Shown here: piece by piece, positions 4,784 through 14,473 of the stretch | Numbering within the stretch: position 1 is the stretch's first letter | How the letters are laid out: each line of letters begins with the position of its first letter | Assembly (NCBI RefSeq): GCF_000731315.1 | Contig: NZ_HG938353.1 | Location: 372,001 to 436,000 of the forward strand | Source of the DNA: Neorhizobium galegae bv. orientalis str. HAMBI 540 | Lineage (GTDB): Bacteria > Pseudomonadota > Alphaproteobacteria > Rhizobiales > Rhizobiaceae | Direction: 5' to 3' | Length of the DNA: 64,000 bases | Notes under the pieces: model-generated | The model's input: the letters and a program-made list of their open reading frames with translations, nothing else | Database searches by the model: none | Told to the model about the DNA's origin: nothing | Program-made: the position numbers and the translations under genes

Positions 4784-5350
4784 ATGTATGGTTCGATCCT
4801 CAGGGCTTATATGGCTCCCCTCTGCGTCCTGCTTTCCACCGGGCAAGCTCATGCAGCAATACTGCCTTGGCAAAATGTCAAAGCCATGCCGTTTATCGTG
4901 CAAGATGGCTTAGAAATAGCGAGACAGGCTCAGGGGAAAGTACCAGCGTCTTTGTACATCGTTTGCTCGGAGAACAAAGAATTGCATCTGGTCTTATTGA
5001 CGAGATTGCCGGGCCCGCGATGGGCGATTGAAAAAGGCCGCGACGACAACGTCTCGCTTTTTGTTGGCGGCATTGAGCAGCAATTGAAAGTGGTCATGGA
5101 TTTAGTCGTGAAGGGGCAAGACCTCACATGGCTTGAATCCGCCATATCGCGCGACGGTGAAGGTGAGCCGGATACGTTGGTCACAAATCCAATAAAAGGC
5201 GAAGAAATAAAGACAATCGGCTCTTGGTTCGGTAACAGGCCACCGTTGAAAGTGTCTATCGTCGGTTATGCCGAAACAGGTGTCTCCATGGTGGGAGCAG
5301 TTGCGGGGCCAGCAATTGCCGAATTTAACGCCTCGTGTGTCGCCGAGTAG
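4784..5350 (+). CDS. Exported protein of unknown function
   Basis: The 188-residue product has an N-terminal hydrophobic stretch ending in GQAHA before AILPW, consistent with a Sec signal peptide cleaved near residue 24. An in-frame ATG at 4811 would shorten the leader. The mature chain is mixed in character, with a C-terminal GVSMVGAVAGPAIAEFNASCV segment. No family is recognised. It stands alone between two decayed genes. The signal peptide and uninterrupted length support a real gene, but expression is uncertain. Confidence 0.55.
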   Translation: MYGSILRAYMAPLCVLLSTGQAHAAILPWQNVKAMPFIVQDGLEIARQAQGKVPASLYIVCSENKELHLVLLTRLPGPRWAIEKGRDDNVSLFVGGIEQQLKVVMDLVVKGQDLTWLESAISRDGEGEPDTLVTNPIKGEEIKTIGSWFGNRPPLKVSIVGYAETGVSMVGAVAGPAIAEFNASCVAE

Positions 5351-5388: not shown

Positions 5389-5735
5389 TCATCCTATTGG
5401 CCAATCCCACGGCAGTAGCTCGTCGATCCGGCTCTGCCTGTGGCCATTGACTATGGCGGTGAGCGTGGCGCTTAGGTAGGCGAACGGATCGACGGAATTA
5501 GCCTACAGGTCTCGATGAGCGACGCGATGATCGCCCAGTTCTCCGCCCCGGCGTCATGCCCAGCAGACAGAGCGTTCCTTCTGTTTAGAGCAATCGGTCG
5601 GATGGTTCTCTCGACGCTGTTGTTGTCGATCTCGATACGGCCATCGTCAGGAAAATGCAAAGGCCGTCCCAGTATTTGGCGATGCAGGCGAGCGCTTCGC
5701 CAAGCGGCGACTTACCAGCAACACGGGCACGACAC
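5389..5735 (-). pseudogene. IS66-family transposase C-terminal remnant
   Basis: The minus strand encodes GKSPLGEALACIAKYWDGLCIF, then after a one-base frameshift DDGRIEIDNNSVERTIRPIA and, further on, SRIDELLPWDWPIG with a stop at 5389-5391. This is the conserved C-terminal end of IS66 TnpC, including the DNNxVERxIRPxAxxRxN block. The upstream two thirds, the accessory orfs and the terminal inverted repeats were not found. It is a dead trace of past insertion. Confidence 0.75.
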
Positions 5736-8472: not shown

Positions 8473-9699
8473 ATGGTCAGCATCCTCACAAATACGTCCG
8501 CAATTGCCGCCCTCCAAACGCTGCGCTCGATAGGTGCCTACCTATTTGATAGCCAGCAGCAGGTCAGCTCGGGCCTGCGAGTGAAAACCGCGTCGGATAA
8601 TGCGGCTTATTGGTCGATTGCAACGACGATGCGCTCGGACAACGGCGCACTTTCCGCCGTTCGGGATGCGCTGGGGTTGGGTGCTGCTACAGTCGACACC
8701 GCTTATGCGGGCATGGAAGTTACAGTCGACATCATCGCCGAAATCAAGAACCGTCTGACGGCCGCCGCCGAATCTGGTGTGGATCGTTCGAAGATTCAGG
8801 AAGAAATCGACCAGCTGCAAGATCAACTGTTGTCGGTCGCCAATGCATCATCATTTGCTGGTGAGAACTGGCTTATCGGCCATCCGAACGTCAACGGCTT
8901 CGTCTATGCCGGGCCAGACAACCCCAATCCCTTCCCGTTGTTGGAGGGCGATAAGAAACTGGTCGCATCCTTCACGCGCGATAGCGCCGGGAATGCGTCG
9001 GTCCAAACCATCGACATCAAGCGAACAACCAAGGACGTTGTGTTTGCTCCGGCCCGTTACGAGCCGGGCGCTCCCCTGATCGGCGTGCAGACCGGCTACG
9101 GCATTGCGGATAGTCCGATCAAATACGAGATGATCTACATCCCCGATGACGTTTTCAACGTTCCTAGGCCTGTAGCCTTTCTGGACTACCAATCGAGCTG
9201 GGAACGAGTGAGTGATGACCTCTATTCCGACGGCACCGACTATTTCACTCGCCTCAACGGCTTTTTCGTCAAGGCGGTCGATGCCTCAGGCAAGATTGAT
9301 ACAACAAGTACGACCGCGAGCCATGGCTTCAATCCGGACGTTACGGTTGCGAGCCTCGACATAACGAAGCTTGATGAGTATTCAGCGCAGTTCGTCGGCA
9401 CGCAAGCACCAGTGGAGTTTGCGCTCGATGTGCTTATTTCATTCGTCGACAGCAAGCTGCAGGATGCCGTCGACGTCTCGGCGAAGTACGGCGCGCTCTC
9501 CAAGAGGATCGAAATACAACAGAATTTCGCAATGGAATTGGCCGACTCTTTTGACCGGGGCGTCGGCCGCCTCGTTGATGCCGACATGAATCAGGCGTCC
9601 ACGCGGTTGAAAGCCCTGCAGGCCCAAGAGCAACTTGCCACCCAAGCGCTCAGCATCGCGAATGAAAGTCCGAACGCCCTTCTACGACTGTTTCAGTGA
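8473..9699 (+). CDS. Orphan rhizobial-type flagellin
   Basis: The 408-residue product has both conserved ends of flagellin. The N-terminal D0/D1 part is NTSAIAALQTLRSIGAYLFD, QQVSSGLRVKTASDNAAYWS and ALGLGAATVDTAYAGM; the C-terminal coiled part is RIEIQQNFAMELADSFDRGV with DMNQASTRLKALQAQEQLATQALSIANESP. The central ~200 residues are variable and would be surface-exposed. Flagellins are exported by the flagellar type III system and polymerise into the filament. No other flagellar gene is nearby. No ribosome site is visible before the ATG (preceded by TTTATTGGTTTTCC), so translation may be weak. Its 3' end overlaps the convergent recombinase gene by 50 bases. Confidence 0.9.
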   Translation: MVSILTNTSAIAALQTLRSIGAYLFDSQQQVSSGLRVKTASDNAAYWSIATTMRSDNGALSAVRDALGLGAATVDTAYAGMEVTVDIIAEIKNRLTAAAESGVDRSKIQEEIDQLQDQLLSVANASSFAGENWLIGHPNVNGFVYAGPDNPNPFPLLEGDKKLVASFTRDSAGNASVQTIDIKRTTKDVVFAPARYEPGAPLIGVQTGYGIADSPIKYEMIYIPDDVFNVPRPVAFLDYQSSWERVSDDLYSDGTDYFTRLNGFFVKAVDASGKIDTTSTTASHGFNPDVTVASLDITKLDEYSAQFVGTQAPVEFALDVLISFVDSKLQDAVDVSAKYGALSKRIEIQQNFAMELADSFDRGVGRLVDADMNQASTRLKALQAQEQLATQALSIANESPNALLRLFQ

Positions 9700-10252
9700 C
9701 GTGCTTCCGTAGATGCCTTCGAACCGTTCTTGGATGCACTCGGTACTGGAGGGCTATGATTTCTAGCGAAAGGTTTTCCTGGAAATGCGCCCGGTACACA
9801 TCAGCAATCTGCTCCTGAGTAAGCGACGGTCGGCGGCCAAGCAGTCGACCCTTAGCTTTGGCGGCGGCAATCCCTGCTGCGGAACGTTCGGATATCAGAC
9901 GTCGTTCAAATTCGGCCAACGCGGCAAAGATATGAAAAACTAAAGCGCCTGCGGGGTTTCCAGTGTCCATGGATTCCGTCAGCGAGAGGAACTCTACTCC
10001 CCTGTTTTGCAGCCGCGTTACTGTTTTTACCAGGTGAATCAGAGACCGACCGAGACGATCCAGTCGCCACACGATGAGCGTGTCACCTCGTTTAAGCCGT
10101 CGCAATGCCTTTGTTAGGCCAGGCCGATTTGTGATCGCGCCCGAAAATCCTTCGTCTTCAAAAATGACGTCACAACCGGCTGCAACCAAAGCGTTCAACT
10201 GCAAATCCAGATTTTGCTCTGTGGTCGATACCCTCGCGTAACCTATTCTCAT
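9650..10252 (-). CDS. Serine recombinase (resolvase/invertase family)
   Basis: The 200-residue protein begins MRIGYARVSTTEQNLDLQ with the catalytic Ser9. It has the RLDRLGRS motif and the long E helix region (FHIFAALAEFERRLISERS), and a C-terminal helix-turn-helix (LSLEIIALQYRVHPRTVRRH). This is the full small-serine-recombinase architecture of Tn3 resolvases and Hin/Gin invertases. These enzymes cut at a 2-bp core within paired inverted-repeat sites. The start is at 10252, preceded by GGAAAG. Two closely related 22-bp palindromes lie just upstream (10288-10309 and 10396-10417) and are candidate sites. No transposase accompanies it. The last ~15 codons overlap the flagellin gene. Confidence 0.9.
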   Translation of the reverse strand: MRIGYARVSTTEQNLDLQLNALVAAGCDVIFEDEGFSGAITNRPGLTKALRRLKRGDTLIVWRLDRLGRSLIHLVKTVTRLQNRGVEFLSLTESMDTGNPAGALVFHIFAALAEFERRLISERSAAGIAAAKAKGRLLGRRPSLTQEQIADVYRAHFQENLSLEIIALQYRVHPRTVRRHLRKHVTETVVEGRSDFHSRC

Positions 10253-10287
10253 GATCTTTCCGAGATTTCCTTGGAATCGGCGCGATT

Positions 10288-10417
10288 GACAAAACCAACC
10301 AATTTTGTCCAACCACGTTTGCCGACGTGCAATAAATGTATGCGTTCAAGGTTCTCAGGGACCTACGCAAGGTACGACATCAATTCTGGTTCGATGACAA
10401 AATTGGTTCGTTTTGTC
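10288..10417. promoter_or_regulatory. Pair of 22-bp palindromic sites between recombinase and LuxR genes
   Basis: Both copies (10288-10309 and 10396-10417) have the form GACAAAA-N8-TTTTGTC. The eight central bases are CCAACCAA in the first and TTGGTTCG in the second. The second copy read on the opposite strand matches the first at 21 of 22 positions, so the pair is in inverted orientation, 86 bases apart. The interval contains the only room for the divergent promoters of the recombinase (start 10252) and the LuxR-type gene (start 10466). They could be recombinase crossover/res subsites or operators. Confidence 0.7.
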
Positions 10418-10465
10418 CTTCACCGACAGCCAAGATTTGTCGTGTTGCCCTGCAGGAGTTGTTTC

Positions 10466-11122
10466 GTGCGAGGGGTGAAATCCTTTTCAGCCTGCGTGCA
10501 CGACTTGATGGACGCCTGGATCAAAAGCAGCGAGGGAGCCAAAGCTACCGACATCTACGAAGCCGTTCTTCGCCCAACGCAGCCGAACGCAATTCTGGCA
10601 CTCATCGGCTGCAAGGCTCAGGAACCAAGCAGTTTCTCAGTCGAATTTATCCGGCGCTACAGCGTTGCAACGGAAATTCTGGATTTCCCGTTGCAACAGC
10701 CGTTCAATCTCCGGAACTTCTCAGATCAAGATTACCTCCACGATATCGTGATGCCCGCGTTGACCGAGGTACTGGCCCAAAAGCGACCATTGTTTTCCAA
10801 GGGACGCACAGTCTTCCAAGGTTGCAGGATTTTCCATGAAAGGCTGCTCCTTCCTCAAAAGTCCGCAACCGGAAGAAGCGAATGGTGCATCCTCTTCTCG
10901 AAGATCGACCTCCTGCTCCCTGAGGTTACAGGGTTCAAAGTGGACGACATTGATCTCAGTATCCTCCAACTGCTCACAGAAGGCGCTGCGCAGAAGGAGA
11001 TCGCGCTCAGGCTGGACCTGTCGCCTCGGACGATTGAGCATCGGATCGAGCGGCTTAAGGGGAGGGTCGGGGCAAAGAACCTACAGCACCTCGTAGCGCT
11101 CTGGATTTCGAGCAGGCTGTAA
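10466..11122 (+). CDS. LuxR-family transcriptional regulator
   Basis: The 218-residue protein ends in a LuxR/FixJ-type helix-turn-helix: DIDLSILQLLTEGAAQKEIA, then LDLSPRTIEHRIERLKGRVGA and NLQHLVAL. The N-terminal ~140 residues form a possible sensory (PAS-like) domain that I cannot name; it lacks recognisable acyl-homoserine-lactone-binding or receiver-domain motifs. I chose the GTG at 10466 because AGGAG (10454-10458) precedes it by seven bases; an ATG at 10508 is an alternative. The frame extends upstream into the palindrome region, which more likely is promoter. It is divergent from the recombinase gene. Confidence 0.8.
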   Translation: MRGVKSFSACVHDLMDAWIKSSEGAKATDIYEAVLRPTQPNAILALIGCKAQEPSSFSVEFIRRYSVATEILDFPLQQPFNLRNFSDQDYLHDIVMPALTEVLAQKRPLFSKGRTVFQGCRIFHERLLLPQKSATGRSEWCILFSKIDLLLPEVTGFKVDDIDLSILQLLTEGAAQKEIALRLDLSPRTIEHRIERLKGRVGAKNLQHLVALWISSRL

Positions 11123-11958: not shown

Positions 11959-13878
11959 GTGTCTAAAAAGATGCCTTCGCTCAAAACCCCAAACGATGTC
12001 GCTCTGTATTGTACGCTCAGGCGAGCGCTCCGAAAGGCCCCTGATTTCATCGGCGGCTACGATTGCATCGTACTTCTGAATGTGCCGTCGGACCGATGTG
12101 CGGAAGACTATGATACGTGTGCGGCAAGCCTCATGCTGCGATTGTCTGCTAATCGGGATGATATGGCGTATGTGATGATCACCGCCGCCGACAAGCCGAG
12201 GGCAATCGTCAAACGACTGGAAGCGGACCATAAGAAACGCCGACTTCTTATCTTTAAGGAACAGGCTGTTGACCTTCCGCTCCAGGTGTCATTGTCCATC
12301 GATGTCGAAGTCGATCTTGCGCCGATCTCGGTGATGGATTTTCGGATCGGCTGCCGCATTGCGTATCAGATCGATGCTACTGCTACTGAAGCGGAAGCCG
12401 CCATGAAATATCCGCTGGATCATGTATGGGCAGCACTGCGTCGCGGCCGCCCCATCAAGGGAGCCTTGGCTCGTTTGGCGAAGGCATCTGAACTCAGTAG
12501 CAGCGGATCGAAGAGTAAAGGTGAATTGCCGCTCCTAGAGGCGATGTACGGTTTTGGAGCTGCAAAGACCTGGGGCCTCGAACTTGCGCAAGACCTAAAG
12601 GACTGGCAGCGAGGCACTATCGATTGGTCAGAGGTCGATACAGGTATCGTCCTCTCGGGTCCGCCAGGTGTCGGCAAAACGCAATTTGCAGCCGCGCTCG
12701 CCCGACAATGCGGTATTCCGATTATCGCGGCCTCGCTGGCTCGTTGGCAAGCGAACGGACACCTCGGAGACCTGCTCAAGGCCATGCGAACAGACTTTGC
12801 CAAGGCAAAAGACAGTGCGCCGAGCATCCTGTTCGTAGACGAATTGGACAGCTTCGGCGACCGAAACTCATTCACCCACGATCACAAAGACTATTCGGTC
12901 CAGGTCGTGAATGCCTTCCTTGAACATTTGGACGGGCTCGACGGGCGCGAAGGTGTCGTCATGATCGGCGCGACGAACGACCTCAGTCGAATTGACCCCG
13001 CCATCCTGCGGCCGGGACGATTGGATCGACATGTTGCCATTCCATTGCCGACCGCCACGGACAGGATCGCCATCCTTCAACAGCAGCTTGGCCAAGAACT
13101 TCCAAGCAAGCATCATTCAAGGCTAGCGGCCGCGACCAGCGGCTTTTCCGGGGCCGATCTTGCAAAGGTCGCACGCGACGCAAAACGAGTTGCACGACGG
13201 GCGAGACGTCACGTGACCATGGATGATGTTGTCGAGGTATTGCCGGAACTTGTCCCGATCACGGGTAAGCTCCGGCGGGCGCTCGCCGTCCATGAAGCTG
13301 GGCACGCGGCGGCAGTGGTTGTTCTTGATCATGGCAAATTTCATGGTGCCATGATCATCGACCACACTCGCAACGATGCGGAGACCGTACCTGGCGGGGG
13401 AGCTTATTACGAGCTTCCAAATGTAGCACACCGTACCGCCCAGACCTACAGGAACCAGATCGCAGTCCTGCTCGCAGGGATGGCGGCTGAGGAGGTCTTC
13501 CTCGGAGCCATCAGCGATGGTTCCGGGGCAGGCGAACGATCCGATCTTGCACAGGCAACAAGGATCGCAACGCTGCTGCAGACAGGCTTGGGAATGGGCA
13601 ATCGTCTTCGACACAGCCTTGCGAAGAAAGACGCCGACCTCGAAAAGCTTCGCAACACTGACGCGACGATCACGGCATGGGTCGATGGCGTGCTCCAATG
13701 CGAATTCGGACGAGCAAAGCAGCTTATCTGGGAGAACCGACAACTCGTCGAGCGTATTGCTGATGAACTGGAATCCCGAGGCAAAGTGACCGCTGACCAG
13801 GTCGCCGAGATGGTGGCGAAACCCGATCTCCTCACACGCAGGGAAAGTCGCCTGCACGCCAACAACAGGACATCTTAA
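11959..13878 (+). CDS. Soluble FtsH-like AAA+ ATPase with M41 peptidase domain
   Basis: The 639-residue protein has an unknown N-terminal domain (1-180). An AAA+ module follows, with Walker A GPPGVGKT (about 234-241), Walker B ILFVDELD (about 290-297) and the second region of homology ending ILRPGRLDRHV. A zinc peptidase with HEAGH (445-449) and a third ligand Asp in GERSDLAQAT (about 529) completes it. This is FtsH chemistry, but the two N-terminal membrane helices of FtsH are absent, so it should be cytoplasmic. The GTG start follows AGGAGG at 11947-11952. The preceding TnsA-like gene is its likely partner. Housekeeping FtsH would be elsewhere. Confidence 0.85.
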   Translation: MSKKMPSLKTPNDVALYCTLRRALRKAPDFIGGYDCIVLLNVPSDRCAEDYDTCAASLMLRLSANRDDMAYVMITAADKPRAIVKRLEADHKKRRLLIFKEQAVDLPLQVSLSIDVEVDLAPISVMDFRIGCRIAYQIDATATEAEAAMKYPLDHVWAALRRGRPIKGALARLAKASELSSSGSKSKGELPLLEAMYGFGAAKTWGLELAQDLKDWQRGTIDWSEVDTGIVLSGPPGVGKTQFAAALARQCGIPIIAASLARWQANGHLGDLLKAMRTDFAKAKDSAPSILFVDELDSFGDRNSFTHDHKDYSVQVVNAFLEHLDGLDGREGVVMIGATNDLSRIDPAILRPGRLDRHVAIPLPTATDRIAILQQQLGQELPSKHHSRLAAATSGFSGADLAKVARDAKRVARRARRHVTMDDVVEVLPELVPITGKLRRALAVHEAGHAAAVVVLDHGKFHGAMIIDHTRNDAETVPGGGAYYELPNVAHRTAQTYRNQIAVLLAGMAAEEVFLGAISDGSGAGERSDLAQATRIATLLQTGLGMGNRLRHSLAKKDADLEKLRNTDATITAWVDGVLQCEFGRAKQLIWENRQLVERIADELESRGKVTADQVAEMVAKPDLLTRRESRLHANNRTS

Positions 13879-13906: not shown

Positions 13907-14410
13907 TCAGGCAAAAGCCGCTGGTGCCGTAAATTTGCTGTGCCACCTGTTATCTTGGGGATTGTAGATTCCTGGAAGCGGATAGCAGCTGTTGATCAAA
14001 AGGAAATCTTTGATATTGAGAGTTGCTATCGGTAATCCATTGACGAGCGCCGTCGCCGCAATATGGAGGTCTTGCCCGTGCCGCAGGCGTTTTGCCCCAG
14101 GATGTGAAATTAGGAGATTGCGCAATCTAGGATCGGCAGCGAGGACGCCCCACACCTCAGCGATCTCTTTTCCAGTATCTAGGATCGGCATGCCGGAGGA
14201 GATCAGCTTCTGATACCAGTTAGCTAGTCGAACCGCTTTGAGCGGATCACGTGAGCACAGCTGAGCGATCCCTTGCTGAAACTCCATGATCGCGGCTGCG
14301 GGAATAAAGAGATTAGATGCCGTTTCAATGAACCGGATCACGTGTGGATGAGGTCTGCTCCTACTTGTTTCGCTCAAAACGCATGTGTCCAGTAAATATC
14401 CTATCGTCAT
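13907..14410 (-). CDS. PIN-domain toxin, VapC/FitB type, without a classical antitoxin
   Basis: The 167-residue protein starts MTIGYLLDTCVLSE and carries the acidic residues of a PIN ribonuclease: Asp8, Glu43 (AAIMEFQQG), Asp114 (HGQDLHIAATA) and Asp135 (NIKDF). VapC-type PIN toxins cleave RNA and are normally encoded after a small DNA-binding antitoxin. Here no such gene lies upstream on the same strand; instead a divergent 82-residue gene starts at 14525, and a perfect 16-bp palindrome sits between them. It converges with the AAA/M41 gene, 28 bases apart. An ATG at 14440 would add ten unlikely residues. Confidence 0.85.
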   Translation of the reverse strand: MTIGYLLDTCVLSETSRSRPHPHVIRFIETASNLFIPAAAIMEFQQGIAQLCSRDPLKAVRLANWYQKLISSGMPILDTGKEIAEVWGVLAADPRLRNLLISHPGAKRLRHGQDLHIAATALVNGLPIATLNIKDFLLINSCYPLPGIYNPQDNRWHSKFTAPAAFA

Positions 14411-14473
14411 AAAGGTACGCTCAGTTTGCAATGCGCGCACGCTCCACCATTATGGTTAAGCATCGATTAATCT

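Follow-up and report, generated by a model that had tools for sequence, protein, structure and literature searches.

The intergenic region between a small serine recombinase gene and a divergent LuxR-type gene raises the question of which protein uses the two palindromes found there, and to what end. The analysed stretch of 64,000 nucleotides, here called the window, corresponds to C1:372001-436000 of a 6.46-Mb genome consisting of two contigs. Site 1 (10288-10309, plus strand, GACAAAACCAACCAATTTTGTC) and site 2 (10396-10417, minus strand, GACAAAATTGGTTCGTTTTGTC) lie 108 bp apart and enclose 86 bp of intergenic promoter region (10310-10395, no strand assigned). The reverse complement of site 2, GACAAAACGAACCAATTTTGTC, is identical to site 1 except for a single base (21 of 22 match, the centre included). 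The core is readable as AA/TT (AA at 10297-10298 of site 1) or as AC/GT (AC at 10298-10299), and the inverted match holds either way. GACAAAA-N8-TTTTGTC occurs without mismatch only in these two copies, in the window as well as in the whole genome, and the two inverted 22-bp palindromes are present as given in the preliminary description. A chance origin of the pair was rejected, because an inverted palindrome pair (at least 17 of 22 bases matching, at most 300 bp apart) was found once in the window and in none of 200 dinucleotide shuffles. We consider it rather probable that the palindromes are the crossover pair of the adjacent invertase and that inversion would change the expression of the LuxR-type gene.

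The recombinase (200 aa) is encoded at 9650..10252 on the minus strand with its start ATG at 10252, and is assigned to PF00239 with an E-value of 2e-46. Its best PDB match is the DNA-invertase 4m6f with 185 bits, which we take to be Gin of phage Mu, compared to 90 bits for the gamma-delta resolvase, and the corresponding PHROG match is a DNA invertase as well (E 7e-71). The residues S9, D65, R66 and R69, presumably the catalytic ones, are invariant in an alignment of eight sequences. Judged from these similarities the protein is nearer to the invertases than to the resolvases. Relatives with an E-value of 1e-30 or better are encoded in 83 of the 199 family genomes searched.

On comparative grounds the palindrome pair goes with this recombinase and not with the LuxR-type protein, since pairs also occur where recombinase relatives are neighbours of other divergent genes, and since 16 LuxR homologues located apart from a recombinase do not have the palindrome. 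The genome G120 encodes relatives of both proteins (70% identity for the recombinase, 51% for the LuxR-type protein) and contains both sites, likewise 108 bp apart. Its site 2 is identical at 22 of 22 positions and its site 1 has one mismatch in an arm; the cores match fully only if read as AC/GT, with one mismatch in the core of site 1 if read as AA. In a search of 394 family genomes for the exact palindrome nine matched, and besides the own genome only G120 represented the same locus, which makes the arm motif alone a poor probe; the strict AA/TT pattern was found in 6 of 394 genomes and is too narrow.

A pair was also present at 11 annotated plasmid loci from ten records, in which L150/L151 and L152/L153 are identical over the compared stretch. 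The divergent gene encodes an EAL-domain protein, which we assume to be related to c-di-GMP, in seven of them (L054, L055, L058, L062, L152, L153, L157). L059 and L158 have a gene for a Hint-domain protein at this place, and in L150 and L151 the product is hypothetical. At L158 from Paracoccus kondratievae (upstream of 2001) a long near-perfect inverted repeat around AAACGGTGGTTTTTGGC is located beside the Hint-domain gene. By eye no pair was seen in 6 of the 11 plasmid loci of one set (L056, L057, L060 at 2501, L061, L063 and L064), four of which are presumably phage-type invertases, nor in L159, one of the seven loci of a second plasmid set. The plasmid search with the recombinase of L014 gave no match, and the viral contigs contained no match to two site patterns.

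The upstream regions of the recombinase relatives were scanned for two quasi-palindromes at a distance of 60-200 bp. The two central bases were masked, and the score did not distinguish direct from inverted similarity. The 96 distinct regions, a non-random set picked for the similarity of their recombinases, were obtained from 162 recombinase hits by removal of duplicates and of starts preceded by too short a sequence; hits short of the N-terminus had been excluded beforehand. Without weighting, the window pair is one of those with the highest score. In the centre-weighted scan 40 of the 96 regions are above the 95% cut of the shuffles and 56 below; the window pair ranks low there and is not among the 36 pairs spaced 100-145 bp (the other four above the cut are outside that range), a consequence of its non-palindromic inner arms.

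Among these 36 pairs the central bases match in inverted orientation in 29, one core is palindromic, six are neither, and not a single pair matches in direct orientation only, whereas the 948 shuffled pairs above the cut contain 47 inverted and 46 direct matches. Since the core sequence varies between members (AA/TT 14, GT/AC 9, TT/AA 5, TC/GA 1), the inverted match means that the cores of the two sites covary. The 29 pairs represent 25 clusters, which were grouped by hand, and the family counts are not independent, because the members are relatives selected for their similarity. Four of the six pairs of neither type result from reading GGGTCCC/GGGACCC or a near form as TC/AC and become inverted after a shift of one base; two look spurious. 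For Hin, core mutations that block base pairing were reported to block ligation of the recombinant (PMC4513852); with that precedent, strand exchange between the two sites would be the simplest reason for the covariation of the cores.

The distance between the sites is restricted as well. One value per cluster was taken for 35 clusters, which were assigned by hand and with some positions placed by eye (L017 with 108 bp and L133 with 107 bp were left out); 22 clusters fall at 105-108 bp and 13 at 116-140 bp. With a period of 10.6 bp the 13 longer spacings share the phase of the main class (P ~1e-5, period and phase being chosen post hoc), and any period between 10 and 11.5 bp fits about as well. 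Five further loci picked by eye, L150, L152, L157 and L158, which were fetched later, and L059, which was among the 96 regions and was missed by the scan, have spacings of 85-106 bp with a phase within 1.1 bp and inverted cores (P 3e-4). This helical phasing points to two bound dimers that would meet across a small loop.

Taken together, the two palindromes very probably belong to the recombinase as a pair competent for inversion and are part of a wider family. From these data we infer binding, looping, actual inversion and an effect on transcription in the following manner. The palindromes would serve as binding and crossover sites of the neighbouring invertase-class serine recombinase, one dimer occupying each site. 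Because the sites are about ten helical turns apart and on the same face, a tight DNA loop, to which a DNA-bending protein might contribute, could bring the dimers together. Strand exchange at the matching central bases would then invert about 108 bp including the intergenic promoter region, and thereby alter the expression of the divergent, flagellin-linked LuxR-type regulator. The element would probably spend most of its time held in a single orientation.

Flipped versions of the segment, which the preliminary description proposed to look for in related genomes, were not found in any comparable set. In the all-against-all comparison of the upstream regions the alignable spacers had the same orientation only, and the minus-strand matches were, as read, the sites or self-palindromes. 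A multiple alignment showed the segments of the window, G120, G011 and G231 all in one orientation. A single orientation was also observed for four matching species among seven genomes of one genus and for three among 39 genomes of another, and identical or near-identical copies on Burkholderia plasmids were unflipped. Most of these comparisons are between species and not within cultures, and the three Agrobacterium plasmid loci are represented by one record each. The uniform orientation suggests that inversion is rare, strongly biased, dependent on induction, or does not happen.

If the segment inverts, a promoter element should be placed differently in the two orientations. Promoter and IHF consensus sequences were taken from general knowledge. 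Among 39 representatives, examined without a shuffle control and with a few cores shifted by one or two bases, TTGACA is present at five or six of six positions in the outer half of site 1 in 29 and in the outer half of site 2 in four. A virtual flip gives a better -10-like hexamer at 16-18 bp in 27 representatives, an equal one in eight and a worse one in four, again without shuffle control; four of six positions are reached in 11 of 39 after the flip and in 1 of 39 in the native state. For the family the flip thus weakly seems to favour a promoter toward the divergent gene, most clearly in the EAL-linked relatives, and the numbers suggest an OFF state for the sequenced family genomes. The window is an exception. 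Its -35-like box TTGACA (10286..10291, plus strand), which overlaps the outer half of site 1, is perfect, yet the -10 hexamer matches at two of six positions when flipped versus three of six in the native orientation, and neither orientation makes a convincing promoter. An IHF-like motif with not more than one mismatch is present in 14 of 50 loci versus 9.5% of the shuffles, but ten of the 14 belong to one related group with the motif at one place, and the window and most others fail; in the group with 107-bp spacing the motif has a fixed place, 6 bp right of the middle of the spacer. The corresponding column, WATCAANNNNTTR in many relatives, is located at 10353..10365 (plus strand) of the window, where the bases are degenerate with three mismatches by eye and the motif is unconvincing. 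An IHF-like bending site in the family is at best hinted at. The earlier proposal that serine recombinase sites form an invertible switch is upheld for the paired inverted sites, by family association, cores and phasing, and lacks support from a flipped relative or from a convincing promoter in the window.

Three other explanations have to be weighed. The preliminary description regarded a plain pair of operators as the main alternative, bound by the LuxR-type protein or by another repressor, and such operators would fit to sites flanking an intergenic region as well as to 22-bp palindromes, which suit dimers of helix-turn-helix proteins. The distribution of the LuxR homologues speaks against it. 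A search with four LuxR sequences gave matches at 27 places in 21 of 374 genomes. Out of 20 LuxR loci tested, only the four closest (window, G120, G231, G011) have a recombinase nearby, and the 16 others have none within the stretch examined. At all 16 the palindrome is absent, the best candidates within the 300-400 bp upstream being mismatched at no fewer than 4 of the 14 arm positions, while recombinases without a LuxR neighbour do have pairs. LuxR operators were rejected on this distribution, and an operator pair of any kind now appears very improbable.

The other two explanations leave the sites to the recombinase. In a resolvase-type res, one palindrome would be the crossover site and the other an accessory site, and the system would resolve dimers or cointegrates. 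Some relatives in the set indeed have other, more complex upstream regions when read by eye (L032, L034-L037), which we take to be res sites of the Tn3 family. Accessory sites need no matching core, however, and here both cores covary in inverted orientation, which also speaks against the res-type option of the preliminary description. The closest solved relative of the recombinase is an invertase, no Tn3 transposase was found among the seven neighbourhood proteins of the window that were scanned, and 7 of 8 rows labelled Tn3 fall into one tree group away from the pair recombinases (labels by hand, topology only), so that a res is quite improbable. A looping autorepressor, for which we see a small but appreciable chance, would bind both sites and shut both promoters by a repression loop, with little or no inversion today. 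Such a loop needs helical phasing, as is observed, both sites are within the intergenic promoter region, and no flipped segments were seen in comparable relatives; what it leaves unexplained is the inverted core match in 29 of 36 pairs, with none matching only directly.

The gene that such an inversion would control encodes an HTH_LuxR-type regulator of 218 aa (10466..11122, plus strand), divergent from the recombinase gene. It comprises a C-terminal GerE match (Pfam), and no Pfam domain was recognised in its N-terminal part; the start codon is either GTG 10466 or GTG 10475, the latter being suggested by an alignment to a relative. On the other side, tail to tail with the recombinase gene, an orphan flagellin of 408 aa with Flagellin_N and Flagellin_C is encoded (8473..9699, plus strand). 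The own genome has nine Flagellin_N matches, five of which are located at C1:185-192 kb. LuxR homologues adjoin a recombinase in G120 (51%), G231 (43%) and G011 (39%), and among the loci examined both genes are together only in these three genomes and in the window. In G011 (L197) the gene order is that of the window, namely flagellin, recombinase, sites and LuxR gene, and no flagellin was seen in the stretches read for G120 and G231.

Wider stretches were read for 21 of the 27 LuxR places besides the window, two of them being copies in G231, and five places were left out. A flagellin gene is near the LuxR gene at 9 of these 21 places, that is in G011 and in 8 of the 17 without a recombinase. 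In the tree the four recombinases linked to LuxR genes group together, as far as its topology is concerned. LuxR homologues are thus often located beside flagellin and mostly without a recombinase, and together with the grouping of the four recombinases it seems that a frequently flagellin-linked regulator has picked up an invertase module. The attention drawn earlier to the flagellin gene was therefore well placed, given the same order in G011 and the frequent neighbourhood of LuxR homologues and flagellin, and we probably deal with a serine-invertase element serving a flagellin-linked regulator. Small HTH_LuxR proteins next to flagellin and with no recombinase in the stretch read are encoded at L198, L199, L202, L203, L205, L207, L211 and L212; it is possible that these are flagellin-specific regulators.

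With Hin/hix of Salmonella flagellar phase variation and Gin/gix of phage Mu the locus shares an invertase-class recombinase encoded beside two inverted quasi-palindromic sites with matching core, and in the window also the link to flagellin. The hin gene lies inside its invertible segment, whereas the recombinase gene is outside here. The hix core is AAACC-NN-GGTTT, in contrast to AAAGG-NN-CCTTT-like cores in many of the present relatives. From centre to centre the sites are about 105 bp apart, and the segment is far smaller; a spacer of 86 bp is short compared to familiar serine invertases. The Hin system is described as using a pair of hix sites together with an enhancer that binds Fis and lies about 100 bp from one of them, HU aiding the looping (PMC3798978, PMC4513852). 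Like fimS and the Bacteroides invertons, the element has a short stretch flanked by inverted repeats in front of a gene and would follow the logic of phase variation. It differs from them by the invertase-class serine recombinase, by a -35-like box that in the family is in the fixed outer half-site with the -10-like box on the segment, and by both orientations not being seen in relatives. Tn3-type and Sin res systems likewise have paired sites in front of the gene for a small serine recombinase; the present element differs in that both of its sites have matching inverted cores and that no Tn3 transposase is among the neighbouring proteins scanned.

In the open literature searched nothing was found on such elements in rhizobia, which leaves room for work in other journals, and a read-based survey reported inversions in none of four alphaproteobacterial samples (PMC5903667). 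As a tentative proposal, somewhat less likely to be right than wrong, the loci may belong to a widespread and apparently undescribed family of micro-switches. Invertases would flip a looped segment of 8-13 helical turns, with a site for a bending protein in some groups, and the flip would join a -10 on the segment to the -35 in the outer half-site, activating EAL operons, secreted proteins or, in the clade of the window, the regulator linked to the orphan flagellin; the sequenced genomes would be mostly OFF. If this is true, unremarked phase variation would be common in alphaproteobacteria and would occur in some betaproteobacteria too, and serine invertases would be tied to c-di-GMP and flagellin regulation. 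As the spacing is phased to the helix, the system would also be a compact one for testing the shortest loop usable by a serine invertase.

Some minor observations concern the neighbourhood and the relatives. Within about 1.5 kb of many pair-type recombinases a second, paralogous small serine recombinase is encoded (L054 at 2501 and 3190, L114-L118, L087, L115, L119, L060); these second recombinases cluster together in the tree and none is above the pair cut. The LuxR query matched two loci in the genome contigs, one weakly and the other being L041 of Neorhizobium alkalisoli, where a C-terminal remnant of the LuxR-type gene is found at 5001-5132 (86% over 44 residues). Downstream in the window a protein with AAA and M41 peptidase domains (FtsH-like) is encoded at 11962-13878, near a PIN-domain gene at 13907-14440. 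The open reading frame 5472-5660 resembles what we take to be the C-terminal end of an IS66-type transposase, which suggests that the area is a mosaic.
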